Part shown: positions 17,786 through 25,224 of the stretch, one piece after another
Numbering within the stretch: the stretch's first letter is position 1
Layout of the letters: every line of letters starts with the position of its first letter
Origin: Actinomadura sp. DC4
GTDB lineage: Bacteria > Actinomycetota > Actinomycetes > Streptosporangiales > Streptosporangiaceae
Assembly: GCF_030406325.1 (NCBI RefSeq)
Contig: NZ_JAUEQY010000006.1
Location: forward strand, 124,001-188,000
DNA: 64,000 nt
Direction: 5' to 3'
The notes under the pieces: model-generated
The model's input: the letters and a program-made list of their open reading frames with translations, nothing else
What the model was told of the DNA's origin: nothing
Databases searched by the model: none
Translations under genes and position numbers: made by a program

Positions 17786-17816
17786 TTCTCAAGTAGAGAT
17801 TATCTCGATATGAGAA
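17786..17816. promoter_or_regulatory. Nested palindrome over the NrtR-like gene's leader
   Basis: A 31-bp nested inverted repeat: outer arms TTCTCA and TGAGAA, inner arms GAGA and TCTC around TTA, with symmetric 4-nt spacers. It ends seven bases before the ATG of the Nudix regulator and overlaps its AAGGA. This is a good candidate operator for autorepression by that regulator; no experimental match is claimed. Confidence 0.55.
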
Positions 17817-17822
17817 GGACTC

Positions 17823-18641
17823 ATGAGCGAGCGCAGACCCCACTCCGAAAAGGAGTTCCTGGCGACGTACGACCCGCGGGCGTACGACCCCGTGGCCGTC
17901 GCCATCGACGTGGTCGCGCTGACCATCCGCGACGGCACGCTGCACGTGCTGCTCGTCCGCCGCGGCGCGCCCCCGCAGGAGGGGATGTGGGCGCTGCCCG
18001 GCGGTTTCGTCAAGAACGCCGGCAGCGCGGGGGCCGAGGGTCTCGACGAGGCCGCCGCGCGTGAGCTCGCCGAGGAGACCGGCGTACGCACGGACTCCCT
18101 CGGCCGGGTCCACCTGGAGCAGCTCGCGGCGTACGGCGCGCCCGGCCGCGACCCGCGCATGCGCGTCGTCTCGGTCGCCTACCTCGCCTTCGCCCCCGAG
18201 ATGCCCGAGCCGCGGGCCGGCAGCGACGCAGCCGACGCGGCGTGGACGCCGGTCGACGCCCTCGGCCTGACCGGCACCGGCGCGCAGCGGCCCGGCACGA
18301 CCCGGCGGCTGGCCTTCGACCACTCGGTGATCCTCACCGACGGGCTCGAACGGGCCCGCTCGAAGCTGGAGTACACCGCGCTGGCCACGACGTTCTGCGC
18401 GCCCGAGTTCACGGTCCCGGAGCTGCGCGCCGTCTACGAGACGGTCTGGGGCGAGGAGCTGCACGCCGGCAACTTCCACCGGAAGGTGCTGTCGGTGCCG
18501 GGGTTCGTGGAGAGCACCGGCACGACCTCTGAGCGGGGCGGGCGGCGCGGGGGCCCGCGCGCCCGGCTCTACCGGGCCGGCGACGCGCGGCTGCTCCACC
18601 CGGCCCTGCTGCGGCCCTCACGAGAGGAGGAGATCCGATGA
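17823..18641 (+). CDS. NrtR-like Nudix-wHTH transcriptional regulator
   Basis: 272 residues. Residues about 20-160 form a Nudix fold with a recognisable box (GGFVKNAG then AARELAEETGV) containing a few extra residues between the Gly pair and the REL core. Residues about 180-250 form the NrtR winged helix (YTALATTFCAPEFTVPELRAVYE, GNFHRKVLSV). NrtR proteins sense ADP-ribose and repress NAD genes, but no NAD gene is adjacent; instead this is the first of four translationally coupled genes. The stop overlaps the next start (ATGA). A nested palindrome precedes it. Confidence 0.88.
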   Translation: MSERRPHSEKEFLATYDPRAYDPVAVAIDVVALTIRDGTLHVLLVRRGAPPQEGMWALPGGFVKNAGSAGAEGLDEAAARELAEETGVRTDSLGRVHLEQLAAYGAPGRDPRMRVVSVAYLAFAPEMPEPRAGSDAADAAWTPVDALGLTGTGAQRPGTTRRLAFDHSVILTDGLERARSKLEYTALATTFCAPEFTVPELRAVYETVWGEELHAGNFHRKVLSVPGFVESTGTTSERGGRRGGPRARLYRAGDARLLHPALLRPSREEEIR

Positions 18642-19606
18642 CGCGTTCCGAGGCCGTACGGCTCATCGAGGCCGCGCGGACCCCGGTCGACCTGTTCGGC
18701 GACGACGGGACCCGCGCGTACCGGCGGCTGGCCCGGCTCGTCCACCCGGACGCCGGCGGACCGCGCGAGGCGTTCGACCGGCTGACCTCGCTGTGGCGCG
18801 CGTACGGGCCGGTGACGATCACGACCCGCCGCGGGACGTACCCGCTGGGCGCGACCCCGGTCCGCGGCGACCTGGCCAACCTCTACGACGCCGGCGAGGC
18901 CGTGGTCAAGATCGCTCGCGACCCGGCAGTGAACGACCTGCTCGAACGCGAGGCGATCGCGCTGCGGCAGCTCCCCAAGGACGGCGACGGGCGGTTCCTG
19001 CCGTACGTGCCGCGCCTGGTGGAGAGCTTCCGGCACCGCGACGAGACGACCGGCCTCGAACGCCGGGTCAACGCGATCGGCCGGCTCGAGGGATTCCGCC
19101 CGCTCACCGAGGTGCGCGCCGCGTACCCGGACGGGGTCGACCCGCGCGACGTCGCGTGGATGTGGCGGCGGCTCCTGGTCGGGCTGGGCTTCGCGCACGG
19201 CGCGGGCGTCCTGCACGGCGCGGTGCTGCCCGAGCACGTGCTCATCCACCCGCGCGAGCACGGCCTCGTCCTGGTCGACTGGTGCTACTCGGTGCCCGGC
19301 TGCCACCCCGACCGCGGCGACCGGGTGCCGGCGATGGTCACCCGCCGCGCCGACTGGTATCCGCCGGAGGTCGCCGCGCGGCGGCCCGCCGGGGCCGGCA
19401 CCGACATCTACCTCGCCACCCGGTGCATGACCTACCTCATGGGCGACCGGGCGCCCAGGCCGCTGCGGGCGTTCGCCCGCGGCTGTCTCCTCACGGCGGA
19501 GAACCGCCGTCCCCAGGACGCCTGGCGGCTGCTCGGCGAACTGGACGACCTGCTCGAACGGCTGTACGGCCCGCGCCGGTTCCGGCCGTTCCACCTGCCC
19601 GGCTGA
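18638..19606 (+). CDS. J-domain protein fused to degenerate kinase domain
   Basis: 322 residues. Residues about 5-55 match a J domain, with the diagnostic HPD at 36-38 inside RRLARLVHPDAGGPREAF. From about residue 75 a protein-kinase-like fold follows: AVVKIA (VAIK-like Lys), LLEREAIAL (alpha-C Glu), HGAVLPEHVLIH in place of HRDxKxxN, and LVLVDWCYS in place of DFG. The catalytic-loop Asp and Asn are both missing, so it is probably a pseudokinase or an atypical enzyme. It overlaps the Nudix gene by 4 bp and is followed after 13 bp by the VWA gene. The partner is likely an Hsp70 or the VWA protein; this is inference. Confidence 0.8.
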   Translation: MTRSEAVRLIEAARTPVDLFGDDGTRAYRRLARLVHPDAGGPREAFDRLTSLWRAYGPVTITTRRGTYPLGATPVRGDLANLYDAGEAVVKIARDPAVNDLLEREAIALRQLPKDGDGRFLPYVPRLVESFRHRDETTGLERRVNAIGRLEGFRPLTEVRAAYPDGVDPRDVAWMWRRLLVGLGFAHGAGVLHGAVLPEHVLIHPREHGLVLVDWCYSVPGCHPDRGDRVPAMVTRRADWYPPEVAARRPAGAGTDIYLATRCMTYLMGDRAPRPLRAFARGCLLTAENRRPQDAWRLLGELDDLLERLYGPRRFRPFHLPG

Positions 19607-19619
19607 AAGGACACATCTC

Positions 19620-20588
19620 ATGGGAAGCGGATCCTGGTCCACCAACGTCTACGACGCCGCCGCGAGCTACCGCGCGGCGACCGGCGCGAGCGCCTTCGCC
19701 TACAGCGACGGCGGCGCGACCGCCGTACACGACGACCTCAACCCGTTCGGCGTCACCGTACGGGAGAGCCGCGACGGCGACGAGCACCCCGACTCGGTCG
19801 CGATCGCCGTCCTGTTCGACGTGACCGGCTCGATGGGGAACGTGCCGCGCACGCTCCAGTCGAAGCTGCCCGGGCTGCTCGGCCTGCTGATGCGCAAGGG
19901 CTACGTCGAGCACCCGCAGATCCTGTTCGGCGCGGTCGGCGACGCCACCTGCGACCGCGCGCCGCTGCAGATCGGGCAGTTCGAGTCCGACAACCGGATG
20001 GACGACGACCTCGGCAAGATCCTCCTGGAGGGCGGGGGCGGCGGTCAGATGACCGAGTCGTACGAGCTGGCGATGTACTTCATGGCACGGCACACCGCCA
20101 TGGACTGCCTCGACAAGCGCGGACGGCGCGGCTACCTGTTCCTGATCGGCGACGAGCTCGCCTACCCGAAGGTGAAGAAGCGCGAGGTCGGCAAGGTCAT
20201 CGGCGACGAGCTCACCGAGGACATCGGGGTCGCGGAGATCGTCGCCGAGCTCAAGCTCAAGTACGACGTCTACTTCATCATCCCCGAGGGCTCGTACAAC
20301 TCCGGCGACGACCGGCTGGCCGACTTCTGGCGCACCCACCTCGGCCAGAACGTCATCCGCCTGGACGACCTGGACGCGGTCTGCGAGACGATCGCGCTGA
20401 CCGTGGGCCTGGCCGAGGACGCCGTCGACCTGGAGGAGGGCCTGGACCATCTGCGGGAGTTCGGCTCGGACGCCGGCGGCTCGGTCTCCCGCGCGCTCGC
20501 GCCGCTGAACTCCCGGCGCGGCGCGGTCTCGGTCTCCCCGACGCCGACCGGCCTCGACCTGTCCGACACCGAGGTCACCCGGCTGTGA
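19620..20588 (+). CDS. VWA-domain protein
   Basis: 322 residues. A von Willebrand factor A domain begins near residue 60 (VAIAVLFDVTGSMGN), with DxTxS as the metal-ion-dependent adhesion site in place of the usual DxSxS, and GYLFLIGDELAYPKV as a later strand with an acidic cluster. There is no signal peptide or membrane helix, so it is cytosolic. AAGGA lies eight bases before the ATG. Its stop overlaps the GTG of the PurA-like gene (GTGA). Cytosolic VWA proteins usually act as adaptors for ATPases or kinases; here the candidates are the neighbouring J-kinase protein and PurA-like enzyme. Confidence 0.8.
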   Translation: MGSGSWSTNVYDAAASYRAATGASAFAYSDGGATAVHDDLNPFGVTVRESRDGDEHPDSVAIAVLFDVTGSMGNVPRTLQSKLPGLLGLLMRKGYVEHPQILFGAVGDATCDRAPLQIGQFESDNRMDDDLGKILLEGGGGGQMTESYELAMYFMARHTAMDCLDKRGRRGYLFLIGDELAYPKVKKREVGKVIGDELTEDIGVAEIVAELKLKYDVYFIIPEGSYNSGDDRLADFWRTHLGQNVIRLDDLDAVCETIALTVGLAEDAVDLEEGLDHLREFGSDAGGSVSRALAPLNSRRGAVSVSPTPTGLDLSDTEVTRL

Positions 20589-21835
20589 ACGTCATCGTGG
20601 CCGACCTGGGGTACGGGGACGCGGGCAAGGGCACGGTCGTCGACTGGCTCTGCGCTCGCGGCCCGTACTCCACGGTCGTCCGCTTCAACGGCGGCGCGCA
20701 GGCGGCGCACAACGTCGTGACCGCCGGCGGGCGCCATCACACGTTCGCCCAGTTCGGGTCGGGCATGTTCACGCCGGGCGTGGTGACGCACCTGTCCCGG
20801 TACATGATGGTCGACCCGCTGGCGCTGGCCGCCGAGGCGGACCATCTGGTCGCCGTGGGCGTCGCCGGCGCGTTCGAGCGGCTGACGGTCGACCGCGACG
20901 CGCTGCTGACCACGCCGTACCACCGGGCCGCGAACCGCGCCCGCTCGACGGCGGTACGGCACGGGTCGTGCGGGGTGGGCATCGGCGAGACGGCGTCGTA
21001 CGCCCTGGAGTGCGACGACGCCCCCCGTGCCGACGACTGCCGCTCCCCCGTGGTGCTGCGGCGGCGGCTGACGCGGCTGCGGGATCACGTCCTCGACTCG
21101 CTGGGGCCCCTTGACGTCCCGGAGGTGGCGGACTGCGTGGACGCCTTCCGCGCGTTCGGGGGGCGGGTGCGTCTCACCGGAGAGGGTTTCCTCGCGTCGC
21201 TGCTGCGGCGTGGGCCGGCGGTGTTCGAGGGCGCGCAGGGGGTGCTGCTGGACGAACGCTACGGCTTCCACCCGTACACGACGTGGTCGACGACGACGTT
21301 CGCCAACGCCGTGACGCTGCTGGCGGAGGCGGGCATGCCCGGATTCCGGCTGGGCGTGACCCGGGCGTACCTGACCCGGCACGGCCCGGGCCCGTTCGTG
21401 ACCGAGGACGCCGCGCTGCACCGCCCGGAACCGCACAACGCGTACGGCCGCTGGCAGGGCGCCTTCCGCGTCGGCCACCTGGACGCGGTGGCACTGCGTT
21501 ACGCCCTGGAGGCGTGCGGAGGAGCGGACGCGCTGGCGGTCACGCACCTCGACGCACCGGCCCCGCTCATCGCGACGGCGTACGACGCCGGGACCCGGCT
21601 GACGCCCGCCGCCGACCTGGACGGCCAGGCGCGCCTCACCGCTCGTCTCATGACCGCCCGCCCGCTGTACGCGCAGGTCGGCCCGGACCCGGCCGCGACG
21701 ATCGAAGAGACGCTGGGCGTGCCGGTCGCGCTCCGCTCGTACGGGCCGACGGCCTTGGACAAGACGGCGACCGGCCTGCTTCCCGGGCCGGCGGTGAGTC
21801 GAGCCAGGGTGTTGACATCCCTCCGCGGTGACTGA
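20585..21835 (+). CDS. Adenylosuccinate synthetase-like enzyme (divergent PurA paralogue)
   Basis: 416 residues with the PurA fold. The P-loop is GYGDAGKGT (normally GDEGKGK), keeping the catalytic Asp and Lys; GGAQAAHNVV replaces GGHNAGHT but keeps the catalytic His; GVTRAYLTRHGPGPF is conserved. The IMP-binding TTGRGIGPAY is changed to SCGVGIGETASY, and the aspartate-binding loop (TGRPRR) is replaced by YGRWQGAFR. The reaction type (GTP-dependent activation of a 6-oxo group) may be kept while IMP or aspartate is exchanged for another substrate. It is the last member of the coupled operon. A housekeeping purA role is unlikely because of these changes and the context. Confidence 0.82.
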   Translation: MNVIVADLGYGDAGKGTVVDWLCARGPYSTVVRFNGGAQAAHNVVTAGGRHHTFAQFGSGMFTPGVVTHLSRYMMVDPLALAAEADHLVAVGVAGAFERLTVDRDALLTTPYHRAANRARSTAVRHGSCGVGIGETASYALECDDAPRADDCRSPVVLRRRLTRLRDHVLDSLGPLDVPEVADCVDAFRAFGGRVRLTGEGFLASLLRRGPAVFEGAQGVLLDERYGFHPYTTWSTTTFANAVTLLAEAGMPGFRLGVTRAYLTRHGPGPFVTEDAALHRPEPHNAYGRWQGAFRVGHLDAVALRYALEACGGADALAVTHLDAPAPLIATAYDAGTRLTPAADLDGQARLTARLMTARPLYAQVGPDPAATIEETLGVPVALRSYGPTALDKTATGLLPGPAVSRARVLTSLRGD

Positions 21836-21878
21836 TCATCTGACGGCTTGTCCAGGCTCACCGAGGAGGGCGAACCAG

Positions 21879-23144
21879 ATGCGCCGAAGCGGAACTCCAC
21901 GTCCCTTACCCCACCGCCCGGAAGGGGGCCGGCTCCTGAGCCATCCGTTCCCGACGGACCAGGACCCGCTGAGGGTGAGCCCTCTCTTCGCCTCCCTGCC
22001 GGGCGTCGTGAAGGTCCGGCTGCACCCGAGCGGCGAGGAGGCATGGCTCGTCCAGGACTACGACCTGGTCCAGTACGTCCTCAGGTCGAGCGTCTTCAGC
22101 CGGGAACTGGCCAACCTGCGGCGGCTCGACGGCTTTCCGCCCCTCGCGGAGAAGGGCTCCCTGCTCGGCAGCGACGGAAGCGCCCACACACGCTTGCGCG
22201 ACGCGCCGAGGGCCGCCTTCAGCCCCGCGCGTGTCACGGCGCTGCGTCCCCGGATCGTGGAGGACGTCAACGCCCTCCTGGACGCGATGACCAGCGGCGG
22301 GGGGCCGGCCGATCTGGTCGAGCGGTTCGCGCTGCCGCTCGCCCTCCACGTCGTCGGCGAGCTCCTGGGCGTACCCGCCGGCGCACGGGAGCGTTTCCGC
22401 CGCTGGGGCGACGCGTTCCTCTCCACCTCCACGGCCAGTCTCGACGAGGCCGGGAAGGCCCAGCTGGAGATGGGCGGATACCTCGCGGGCCTCCTCGCCG
22501 AGCGCCGGGCGGCGCCACGGGCCGACCTGCTGTCCGACATGATCGCTCCGGACAACGAGGTCAGGCTCGATGACCAGGAGGTCATCACGGTCGCGATCGA
22601 GATCATGCTCGCCGGCTGGGAGACGACCGCCGCCGCGATCGCCGGCTTCACGTACTGGCTCCTCACCAGCTCCACCGACGCCGGCGTCAGCCACTACCGG
22701 CACCTGGCCGACCACCCCGACCAGGTCGAACGCGCCGTCGAGGAACTCTTCCGGGCGATCCCGATCGGGGCGGGCGACGGCCTTCCCCGGGTCGCGCGCG
22801 AGGACGTCTCACTCGGCGACGTCACCGTACGCGCGGGAGACCTCGTCCTGGCCAGCCACGACGGCGCCCACCTGGACGAGGAGCGCTTTCCCGGCGCTTC
22901 GGCGATCGACCTGACGCGGCACCCGAACAAGCACATGGCGTTCGGCTACGGGAAGCACTACTGCCTGGGCGCCGCCCTCGGCCGGCTGGAGACACAGATC
23001 GCGCTCGCCGAGCTCCTCCGGCGGTTCCCGGGCCTCGGTCTCGCGACGCCCTCCTCCGAGGTCGCGTTCAAGACCGGAACCTCGATTCGAGGGCCGGTCG
23101 CGCTTCTCGTCCGCTGGGACGGCGCGCGTGTCACCCGGCGATGA
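21879..23144 (+). CDS. Cytochrome P450
   Basis: 421 residues. The haem-binding loop is FGYGKHYCLGAALGRLE, the I-helix oxygen-activation motif is LAGWETTAAAI (AGxET), and the K-helix ExxR is in VEELFRAI. Soluble actinobacterial class I type; redox partners are not nearby. The ATG has GAGGAGGG upstream; a GTG at 21828 overlapping the PurA-like stop is an alternative. It may be transcribed with the upstream operon, 43 bp away. The substrate is unknown. Confidence 0.92.
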   Translation: MRRSGTPRPLPHRPEGGRLLSHPFPTDQDPLRVSPLFASLPGVVKVRLHPSGEEAWLVQDYDLVQYVLRSSVFSRELANLRRLDGFPPLAEKGSLLGSDGSAHTRLRDAPRAAFSPARVTALRPRIVEDVNALLDAMTSGGGPADLVERFALPLALHVVGELLGVPAGARERFRRWGDAFLSTSTASLDEAGKAQLEMGGYLAGLLAERRAAPRADLLSDMIAPDNEVRLDDQEVITVAIEIMLAGWETTAAAIAGFTYWLLTSSTDAGVSHYRHLADHPDQVERAVEELFRAIPIGAGDGLPRVAREDVSLGDVTVRAGDLVLASHDGAHLDEERFPGASAIDLTRHPNKHMAFGYGKHYCLGAALGRLETQIALAELLRRFPGLGLATPSSEVAFKTGTSIRGPVALLVRWDGARVTRR

Positions 23145-24069
23145 GCCGGCGGGCACCCTTGCGGGCGAGGGTGGCGGCCACGTACGCGCCGAGTTCGTGC
23201 GCGTGGTCGGGGGTGTCCCATTCCTGGGCGTAGGCGAACTCGGCGCCGTCCTGGCTGAAGACCATGCCGAGCAGTGAGAGCCGGCCGTCGGCCGTGGTCG
23301 TGCAGTGGCCGGCGATCGGGCTGTTGCAGTGGCCTCGCAGGCCGTGCAGCATCGTGCGTTCGGCGGTGACGTGGGTGCGGGTCCGCCGGTCGTCGAGCCG
23401 GCGCAGAAGCTCGACGATGCCCTCGTCGGCCGTACGGCACTCGATCCCGATCACGCCGGCGCCGACCGGCGGGCACATCACGTCGAGGGGCAGGACCTCG
23501 GCCGCCCGGTGCTCCATCCCGATCCGGCGCAGGCCCGCGTAGGCGAGGACCAGTGCGTCGAAGCGGTGTTCGGCGTCGAAGCGGGCGATGCGGGAGTTGA
23601 CGTTGCCGCGGATCCGGTCGACGGTCAGGTCGGGACGTTTGCGCAGGATCTGGGCCTTGCGGCGTACGGCCGAGGTGCCGATGCGCGCGCCGGGCGGCAG
23701 GCCGTCGAGCCCGCGGTACGGGGAGCCGGCGGGGAACAGCACGGCGTCGCGCACGTCCTCGCGCGGCAGGTAGGCGGCGAACGTGGTGCCCTCCGGCATC
23801 GGGACGTCGCCCGGTACGTCCTTGACGCAGTGCACCGCGACGTCGATGGCGTCCGTCACCAGTTGCCGGTCGATCTCCTTGAGGAACGCGCCCTTGCCGC
23901 CCAGCTCGGCGAGATCGCCCTGCCACCGGTCTCCCGAGGTCTCGATGCCGACCAGCTCGACGTCGACGTCCTCGGCGAGCTTGAGCAGGAGGTCCCGCAC
24001 GTGTTCGGCCTGGGCGACGGCCATCGGCGAGGTACGGGAACCGATGCGGATGCGGGGACCTGGAAGCAC
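23131..24069 (-). CDS. hemC: Hydroxymethylbilane synthase (porphobilinogen deaminase)
   Basis: 312 residues from the GTG beginning VLPGPRIRIGSRTSP, the family length. Hallmarks: IRIGSRTSPMAVAQA, CVKDVPGDVP, and the dipyrromethane cofactor Cys in LRGHCNSPIAG. The latter differs from the commoner GGC(S/Q)xPxG, so this may be a second, divergent hemC rather than the copy in the main haem cluster; no other haem genes are adjacent. A start at 24177 would add 36 unconserved residues. Its end overlaps the convergent P450 gene by 14 bp. Confidence 0.88.
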   Translation of the reverse strand: MLPGPRIRIGSRTSPMAVAQAEHVRDLLLKLAEDVDVELVGIETSGDRWQGDLAELGGKGAFLKEIDRQLVTDAIDVAVHCVKDVPGDVPMPEGTTFAAYLPREDVRDAVLFPAGSPYRGLDGLPPGARIGTSAVRRKAQILRKRPDLTVDRIRGNVNSRIARFDAEHRFDALVLAYAGLRRIGMEHRAAEVLPLDVMCPPVGAGVIGIECRTADEGIVELLRRLDDRRTRTHVTAERTMLHGLRGHCNSPIAGHCTTTADGRLSLLGMVFSQDGAEFAYAQEWDTPDHAHELGAYVAATLARKGARRLIAG

Positions 24070-24201
24070 CCGCTCAACATAGGCCGTCAAGGGAGCATCC
24101 CCCTGCGGTACCCCTCTCCAGGGGCCCGCCCGCCGGGTAACGACCTGCTGACCGTGGGCGATTAACGTCTCGACCATCGGCCGAAATCAGGGGGCTCCGC
24201 G

Positions 24202-25224
24202 GTGGCGACCGGGGAACGGCCCGCACCGAACCCACGGAACGGCCGCGGCGAGGGCCTGCGGGAGTGGCACGCGCACCAGGCCTTCGCGCAGATGGTCGAC
24301 CAGGCCCGGTATCGCGGGTTCCGGCGGAAGGCGGGCCGGCCACGGCGCAGGCGGACGATCACCAGCAACGAGGAGTACTGGGATCAGGTCCGCCGCGATC
24401 GCCTCGACGAGAGCGCGCCCGTCCGCCTCAGCGACTTCTACCTCACCGAGTGGGTTCCCCTCACACCCGGCCGGTTCCACACCTCCGAGGCCGCCGCCGC
24501 GCGTACGGTGGCCCGCTACCACGTCGACTCCGAAGATCCGGCGCACGGAGTCGACTACCGGCCTGCGGGCAAGCGATCGATGATCCAGGGCGGCATAGGC
24601 ACGGTCCGGCTGCCCCCTCTGGACGTCGGCGGCGGGCCCGTCCGCGTCCTGTCCGCCACCTCCGACGGCGTCTGCCATTCGGGCGTTCCCCTCCTGCTCG
24701 GCGACGAGGGGTACGGATCGGTGATCCCCGAGATCCGGGAGCGCGGCGGTCTCATGGCCGACGTCTCCGGCGTCATGCGCCTGGTCCCCGAGGTCGTGCG
24801 GCACCACACCGAACGCCTGGTGCTCGACGTCACCGACATCCGGCCCCGCCGGACGCCGGTCTCCGTCGAGGCGACCGCCTGCGTCGCCTTCTACACGTCG
24901 GCCGAACGCCGGGATCCCGACGCCTACTCCTACATCACCTTCCGCCCGGGGCTGGACGGCGCGCTCGAGACCGCGGTGGAATGGCTCGACCGCTACGCCC
25001 GGCGGTTCTCCGAGGACGACACGGCGCGGATCGTGGGCGACTTCGACGCCTTCCACGATCACTTCCCCGACGTCGAGATCCCGCTCGACGACGTCGCGCG
25101 CGGGGTGTTCGACCCGGGGAGGCTGCGAAGAGATCATCCGCGGCTGGTCCAGGTCTTCGGCGACCTGTTCTCCGGCGTGAACGACGCCACCATCATCAAC
25201 CGCTCGGTCACCGGGGAGCCGTGA
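24202..25224 (+). CDS. Hypothetical protein, 340 residues
   Basis: I do not recognise a family. The N-terminal 55 residues are basic and low-complexity (RRKAGRPRRRRT). The rest looks globular, with SDFYLTEWVPLTPGRFHTS, a central Gly-rich strand-turn region, an Arg/Val-rich segment about residues 190-220 and an acidic helical C-terminus. No signal peptide or membrane helix. GTG start with AGGGGG upstream; normal codon bias for this genome supports it as coding. It is divergent from hemC with 132 bp between. Confidence 0.6.
   Translation: MATGERPAPNPRNGRGEGLREWHAHQAFAQMVDQARYRGFRRKAGRPRRRRTITSNEEYWDQVRRDRLDESAPVRLSDFYLTEWVPLTPGRFHTSEAAAARTVARYHVDSEDPAHGVDYRPAGKRSMIQGGIGTVRLPPLDVGGGPVRVLSATSDGVCHSGVPLLLGDEGYGSVIPEIRERGGLMADVSGVMRLVPEVVRHHTERLVLDVTDIRPRRTPVSVEATACVAFYTSAERRDPDAYSYITFRPGLDGALETAVEWLDRYARRFSEDDTARIVGDFDAFHDHFPDVEIPLDDVARGVFDPGRLRRDHPRLVQVFGDLFSGVNDATIINRSVTGEP

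Follow-up and report, generated by a model that had tools for sequence, protein, structure and literature searches.

A probably self-regulated bacterial cassette with an altered PurA-like protein and a VWA protein as a core shared with large phages

Why would a relative of adenylosuccinate synthetase (PurA) be encoded in one unit with an NrtR-type regulator, a J-domain protein and a cytosolic VWA protein, and what might such a unit do? The question is raised by Actinomadura sp. DC4, in a 64,000-nucleotide stretch (the window; contig NZ_JAUEQY010000006.1, positions 124,001 to 188,000 of the forward strand), in which a first-pass annotation had described four coupled genes and proposed a nucleotide- or NAD-linked stress, conflict or modification system. 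We refer to the four proteins as N, K, V and P, in gene order, and to their genes together with the operator upstream as the cassette. Its parts, in window coordinates, are:

17786 to 17816, no strand assigned: operator TTCTC-N5-GAG-N5-CTC-N5-GAGAA, 31 bp, two tandem dyads, agreeing at 16/16 specified positions
17823 to 18641, forward strand: N, NrtR-type Nudix and winged-helix regulator, 272 amino acids, from Pfam and residue conservation
18638 to 19606, forward strand: K, J domain and predicted pseudokinase, 322 amino acids, from profile and alignment evidence
19620 to 20588, forward strand: V, cytosolic VWA (integrin beta-I-like) protein, 322 amino acids, PHROG 2971 (unknown function), from its fold and metal ion-dependent adhesion site (MIDAS)
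20585 to 21835, forward strand: P, PurA-like, probably GTP-dependent enzyme of a distinct subfamily, 416 amino acids, from homology, alignment and tree

The cassette and its core

Four-base overlaps join N to K and V to P in the window. To place this arrangement in a wider set, GTDB genomes were scanned with the V family, which gave at least 442 relatives, the best 80 of which were kept (all Actinomycetota by title); as the best-scoring loci these are biased towards the window. V was present in 80/80, P and N in 79 each and K in 74, the locus without P (L055) stopping at a contig end and the locus without N (L065) beginning at a contig start. The four genes were present together in 72 of the 80 loci and the order N-K-V-P, taken from stop positions on one strand, held in 80/80, so the four-gene set described in the first-pass annotation is real. 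Start codons lay at the stop overlap in 60/74 N-K pairs, 53/80 V-P pairs and 5/75 K-V pairs. In six loci K was absent with N, V and P still together (L056, L060, L067, L085, L087 and L088), and the operator agreed at 16/16 positions in all six.

No further conserved neighbour was found in bacteria: no gene cluster was common to more than 16 of the 80 loci, and the leading clusters were genus-level synteny or shadow open reading frames (ORFs). Among the same-genus genomes listed, four of eight carried the cassette (the window's included), and its place between a GGT gene and permease on one side and an MFS gene on the other is stable across the genus. Three congeners with the cassette have N-K-V-P and then the same MFS gene, and in three without it the permease adjoins the MFS gene with less than 100 bases between the aligned ends, an empty site; in a fourth cassette-less congener the GGT gene alone was matched on a short contig stretch, and this genome was not counted. 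In the window a P450 gene, a HemC-like gene and ORF 24202 (no Pfam match) occupy positions 21828 to 25224, between P and the MFS gene. We considered these three as operon members and rejected them, since in the three congeners P is followed by the MFS gene without them, and the operon therefore ended at P. Operator, N, K, V and P make up one discrete cassette which has the look of self-regulation. Within the genus, identity was 90-92% for N, 84-88% for K, 84-90% for V and 76-79% for P, with flanks at about 89% for GGT (88-90% for GGT and permease) and 79-83% for the MFS gene; most of the genes around P change more slowly than it does. In a family-level sample V was found in 129/297 genomes (two weak matches, one short fragment and several with internal stops among them) versus 2/396 in a phylum-level sample, the window's own genome being one of the two, and the cassette therefore clusters in certain families. 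V matches interrupted by one or two in-frame stops (G504, G544, G568, G478, G428 and others) are perhaps decaying copies.

PHROGs held phage families matching all four proteins, an early hint that the set extends beyond bacteria. By tblastn, V was found in 207 phage records (188 Mycobacterium, 10 Rhizobium and 6 Vibrio phages among them), K in 191 and P in 225, some of the last perhaps ordinary PurA; phage Mangeria, for example, carries K-V-small ORF-P near its right end. From IMG/VR we took the best 80 of 134 V relatives and the best 80 of 347 P relatives, a choice again biased towards the window, and collapsed the loci by shared sequence to 128 distinct viral loci. By content these were KPV in 66, PV in 47, KNPV in eight, NPV and KV in two each, and KP, V and P in one each. 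The search for viral N and K genes used actinobacterial or cassette profiles at E 1e-4 over stretches of limited length, so their absences are upper limits. Among the 80 loci found by P alone, V was matched in 78 (once as a 30-bit fragment); in the two misses P lies within 1 kb of a contig end, and in one of them, L195, P is immediately preceded by a K fragment. V and P occurred together in 123/128 viral loci, on the same strand in 123/123 pairs, with V first in 121 and the two genes within 100 bases in 77, and N was present in 10/128. From these contents and this pairing, V and P therefore form the irreducible core, common to large phages and bacteria, with K as a frequent and N as a rare, exchangeable partner. 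The possibility that the cassette is synteny of close kin only was rejected, as loci lie in many genera, on plasmids and in phages, far beyond close relatives. Further genes were seen beside single cassettes: on the Allorhizobium plasmid pAtS4e (L005:10315-16711) AAA ATPase, DUF5682 and DUF4132 genes follow the cassette and VgrG and phospholipase genes lie upstream, one viral contig has a TROVE protein with a VWA-like part upstream of K-V-P (L097:343-1980), and another a DUF2828/DUF7788 protein near the cassette (L105).

This distribution bears on whether the cassette is a bacterial anti-phage defence, in which an ADP-ribose signal released by infection would induce the operon, and V, P and K would damage or starve the phage. 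Its patchiness within the genus and the identity of P among congeners, below the 88-90% of the adjoining GGT and permease, would fit such a role. So would the operons described in the available part of PMC9503650, in which a Nudix-winged helix-turn-helix (wHTH) or WYL regulator and a vWA chaperone stand with an ADP-ribosylglycohydrolase (ARG) and which are proposed to counter ADP-ribosylation, with ADP-ribose as the signal. However, no neighbour recurs beyond genus level (the neighbours lay outside the PADLOC scan), PADLOC gave no match for V or P and matched only the kinase part of K (8.3e-9, to that of MkoA) and the Nudix part of N (1.7e-4, to PDC-S07), and phages themselves carry the core widely. 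We find little support for a defence role in bacteria and consider it doubtful. The conflict role suggested in the first-pass annotation was not borne out there, with no neighbour conserved beyond the genus and a stable genus site, although the carriage by phages and the lower conservation of P than of its flanks would be compatible with a conflict role.

P, V and K

Four motifs were located in the core proteins and K:

21437 to 21469, forward strand: remodelled aspartate loop of P, residues 285-295, N...WQG..R where PurA has TTGRRRR, from alignment
19818 to 19832, forward strand: MIDAS motif DVTGS of V, residues 67-71, from alignment
18743 to 18751, forward strand: HPD motif in the J domain of K, residues 36-38, from alignment of relatives
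19214 to 19222, forward strand: HGA replacing the kinase HRD in K, residues 193-195, from alignment of relatives

P is homologous to PurA and matches Adenylsucc_synt (PF00709) over residues 6-324, above the Pfam cut-off (187.8 bits versus 27), but falls below the NCBIfam PurA equivalogs (136 bits versus a cut-off of 402, and 113.2 versus 395.55); a second PurA, with a higher, ordinary score, lies elsewhere in the host genome. We aligned 211 members of the P family (85 cell, 126 viral) with E. coli PurA and the host PurA, using the E. coli literature numbering. D13, K16, H41, Q224 and R272 are kept in 211/211, D333 in 208 and T239 in 207, H41 and D13 being what we take to be the catalytic residues of PurA. 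At the presumed inosine monophosphate (IMP)-side residues, N38 is replaced by Gln in 209/211 and T129 gives way to Cys in 191 and to Val in 15, with Thr kept in five. V273 is His in 211/211, T301 is Gln in 205/211, K331 is His or Cys in 205/211 and R305 is hydrophobic in 210/211. The aspartate loop is one residue shorter, with a gap at the aspartate-binding R303, in 211/211; across columns 303-306 E. coli PurA has four Arg and host PurA three Arg/Lys, versus one in 160 members of P, two in 50 and none in one. The contact of R303 with aspartate in PurA is given in the available part of PMC8342488, and that of PMC6136348 gives no residue roles. In a tree with two PurA outgroup sequences the P family was separate from PurA (support 100), and the altered PurA of the first-pass annotation is confirmed by the shortened loop and the V273H change. 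Judged from alignment and tree, P is a coherent, distinct PurA subfamily with an apparently rebuilt acceptor site. We infer that P keeps the GTP-dependent activation of a 6-oxopurine (hypoxanthine-type) and uses an acceptor other than free aspartate, and in our reading the phosphate end of the nucleotide would be bound differently than by PurA.

Another account would make P a spare PurA, or one that resists drugs such as aspartate analogues, with V and K as unrelated hitch-hikers. Actinobacteria make aspartate analogues, and P matches the PurA family over residues 6-324. Against this stand the loop shortened in every member, the replacement of N38 in 209/211 and of T129 in 206/211 (on the roles assumed above), the second, ordinary-scoring PurA of the host, and the company of V in 123/128 distinct viral loci, and we regard a spare PurA as highly unlikely.

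PurZ, the 2-amino-adenylosuccinate synthetase of Z-DNA phages, is likewise a phage relative of PurA, and the PHROG name for the P family, '2-aminooxy adenylosuccinate synthetase', is an annotation only. P scores 37.2 bits on the NCBIfam PurZ model, versus a cut-off of 300. The PurZ-specific Ser presumably stands at the Asp13 position, where P has Asp in 211/211, and the retention of Asp13 would argue against a guanine-type substrate as in PurZ. This Ser (S23) is placed near the purine 2-amino group in the available part of PMC8342488. A PurZ-like Z-DNA enzyme was rejected for P on the model score and the Asp13 retention.

The window's V has no match in Pfam, NCBIfam or PADLOC, whilst its fold is Rossmann-type and matches known VWA domains. 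Its MIDAS residues D67, T69 and S71 are kept in 80/80 cell rows and, in alignment A4 (window excluded), in 52/52, 51/52 and 52/52 rows, which makes the motif a DxTxS of the MIDAS DxSxS/T type with one T-to-S change among 52 rows. A PDB sequence search with the V profile returned mS35 alone at E 0.11 and a repeat search gave no match, a Pfam scan of 53 V proteins gave weak VWA_CoxE matches in 2/53 (best E 0.064), and against the host's own VWA proteins the profile reached 60% over 18 residues only, versus at most 0.3% for ten column shuffles. In phage CharlieB (L262:1345-3126) V holds an in-frame HNH-type, intein-like insert directly before the IFIGDE stretch; inserts of this type occur in some cluster C mycobacteriophages, and in several other such phages V is found in two tblastn pieces.

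K combines a weak J-domain score with a kinase fold. The single-sequence Pfam score for the J domain is below cut-off, but the K profile matches a DnaJ-type structure (6.9e-5), and HPD is kept in 72/72 cell rows with letters there and, in alignment A5, in 21/21 cell and 25/28 viral rows. At residue 195, the place of the catalytic Asp in HRD, Ala stands in 74/74 cell rows and Asp in 3/28 viral rows, in agreement with the missing Asp of the first-pass annotation. K thus reads as a pseudokinase, and we rejected an active Ser/Thr kinase on this replacement. A cluster C mycobacteriophage protein, presumably K, is suggested in the available part of PMC12363180 to be a kinase that may suppress host immunity.

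The acceptor site remodelled alike in 211/211 and the standing MIDAS partner would also suit the modification of a nucleic acid base or of a protein by P and V, an activated purine or an inosine in RNA or DNA being linked to an amine or peptide that V holds. However, no nucleic-acid-binding Pfam domain was found in K, V or P, and we consider this rather improbable.

Regulator N, NAD genes and transfer

N carries a Nudix domain and an NrtR winged helix, both above Pfam cut-offs, and scores below the NCBIfam NtrR equivalog (116 bits versus a cut-off of 400). The Nudix box is kept in actinobacterial N, with R80 in 79/79, E81 in 75/79, E84 in 79/79 and E85 in 75/79. The operator ends six bases upstream of the N start codon, and at least 14/16 of its positions were found upstream of N in 76/77 scored loci (window included) versus 1.2% of 3,850 random stretches; the count is descriptive, as the pattern was fixed after a palindrome scan of the very regions then counted, and the control stretches, drawn from the same loci, may overlap true sites. 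Scoring left out four of 81 loci (L061, L066 and L078, where the YDP anchor is missing, and L065, which has no N). In the host genome (10.67 Mb) the full operator occurs once within one mismatch, two mismatches add one further place, equal to the reversed-pattern control, and a shorter core gave one place, equal to its own control, so the argument rests on the full element. With its single full operator, N therefore looks like a local autoregulator rather than a global NAD regulator, operator binding being predicted. Like NrtR repressors it has both domains and an operator adjoining its own gene, and it differs from them in its single local operator and in recurrent neighbours without NAD genes. 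By eye, Rhodococcus, Tsukamurella and Allorhizobium plasmids have other inverted repeats at equivalent places.

In a midpoint-rooted tree actinobacterial N grouped with one host-genome paralogue (support 0.93), seven phage N grouped together (0.99), two other viral N formed another group (1.0) and the N of Rhodococcus and Tsukamurella plasmids a separate one (1.0). N therefore probably joined the core repeatedly, by independent recruitment in several lineages. From this and its presence in 10/128 viral loci we take N to be the switch and V-P(-K) the machine, N having the look of a locally acting, exchangeable regulator outside the core chemistry.

NAD genes stand beside some viral cassettes. 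NAMPT genes were found in 12/128 viral loci and NADAR-like genes in 8/128, no more than 4.5 kb from a cassette gene, on its strand and in several orders, three loci having both (NADAR-like identity is from Pfam for L177 and from blastp links for the other members). In whole viral records NAMPT was present in 17/50, and lay within 5 kb of the cassette in seven against 0.99 expected (P 2e-5). Rhizobium phage RHph_Y65 has annotated phosphoribosyltransferase-like and nicotinamide mononucleotide (NMN)-adenylyltransferase/Nudix genes upstream of V-P, and a NadM-like identity near phage cassettes is unconfirmed, an ORF in L109 having a Nudix match only and L114 a cytidylyltransferase-like match below cut-off. 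The cassette thus shares phage neighbourhoods, in a minority, with the NadV/NadM salvage of phages (PMC7824862, PMC9503650), whilst 'adenylosuccinate' and 'PurA' are absent from the main text of both papers. The NadV and NADAR-like genes support an NAD link of the cassette moderately. The nucleotide or NAD link of the first-pass annotation thus stands in part: the separate Nudix-wHTH lineages beside the core and the NAMPT and NADAR-like genes of some phages uphold it, but N as a part of the core chemistry does not hold.

The same neighbours would fit a module with which phages take over the host or counter its defences, by restoring adenine nucleotides or NAD that the host has depleted, and which actinobacteria and some proteobacteria captured. 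Quick trees gave at least six virus-cell changes for V and at least three for P, and in the P tree cell sequences fall at at least three places among viral ones, one of these being Variovorax with L210; the P of this 'viral' contig is near-identical to that of a Variovorax plasmid (L009), and the contig may be a bacterial replicon or provirus. Phage K, moreover, keeps HPD in 25 of 28 rows. Against a firm direction of transfer stand the cell sample, which is the best 80 of at least 442 relatives, the long branch of the PurA outgroup and 40/94 inner branches drawn open. The strongest rival, which overlaps with the explanation we prefer, is such a replenishing or counter-defence module of phage origin that bacteria captured; we place it on the unlikely side.

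Proposed mechanism and known systems

The nearest published idea is the ARG-centred operon type (PMC9503650, in its available part), which likewise has a Nudix-wHTH regulator and a vWA protein; the enzyme differs, as ARG and phosphatase were not found by Pfam in the four proteins, which have P and K instead (the search covered these four, recurrent neighbours having been clustered only). In the available part of PMC7159879, stand-alone vWA proteins are linked with kinase and PP2C, resembling V beside a kinase-fold protein, and MoxR-vWA systems pair vWA with an NTP-using enzyme. The cassette kinase is, by contrast, apparently dead and J-fused, and neither PP2C nor MoxR was found among the four. 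P differs from PurA itself in its shorter loop, hydrophobic residue at R305, V273H, T301Q and N38Q, and standing partner V, whilst retaining D13, K16, H41 and Q224. No description of the four-gene set, and no paper joining NrtR with adenylosuccinate, was found in the literature searched (most subscription papers lie outside it), in line with the first-pass annotation, which knew of no such system. Within that literature the composition of the four-gene set is new.

We propose, as the best overall explanation and with chances a little short of even, that the cassette is an operon silenced by N and responsive to an ADP-ribose/NAD-type nucleotide, in which V-P is a ligation machine and K an Hsp70 adaptor, serving NAD or purine nucleotide metabolism under stress. 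The proposal builds on the observed gene unit, operator, core, residue changes and V fold, and adds a putative signal, acceptor, complex and output. N would sit on the operator and keep the operon silent until such a nucleotide binds to N, upon which K, V and P would be made together, N-K and V-P often being translationally coupled. P would, like PurA, phosphorylate a hypoxanthine-type purine on its 6-oxo group at the expense of GTP, and join the activated purine to an amine other than free L-aspartate; V, as the MIDAS protein and standing partner, may hold an acidic partner or the target, and K may bring Hsp70 via its J domain, its dead kinase fold serving as an adaptor. The output would most likely lie in NAD or purine nucleotide metabolism under stress, as replenishing, a repair reaction or a modified nucleotide, and the same chemistry may be why phages have the core, in some cases together with NAD salvage genes.

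Several observations weigh against this explanation. Neither an NAMPT nor a NADAR-like gene lies within 4.5 kb in 111/128 distinct viral loci, and the genes that recur beside the 80 actinobacterial loci include no NAD gene. With four of the five relatives in a single phage lineage removed, NAMPT lay within 5 kb in 3/13 (P 0.04) and within 3 kb in 2/13 (P 0.11). By eye reading of ORFs, the host's two other NrtR-type genes are not beside obvious NAD genes. For P, the place of the loop gap depends on the alignment, column 304 being Arg in 24/211 and Lys in 26 viral members, and the acceptor is deduced from lost residues only.

A bolder form of the proposal, which we think fairly improbable, is that V-P is a GTP-driven purine-conjugating machine diversified in large phages. 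P would activate the 6-oxo group of a hypoxanthine nucleotide, the MIDAS of V would present a non-aspartate amine acceptor (a peptide, a protein or an NAD-type molecule) and K would recruit Hsp70, bacteria having taken up the core about three times and added their own Nudix-wHTH regulators.

The cassette defines a PurA subfamily with a seemingly rebuilt acceptor site and a standing VWA partner; its core occurs in many large phages, including Bixzunavirus mycobacteriophages, and it offers testable partners, a precise operator and a short residue list. If the chemistry is as the residues suggest, the cassette would encode a nucleotide ligation reaction unknown so far, used by phages and hosts alike.

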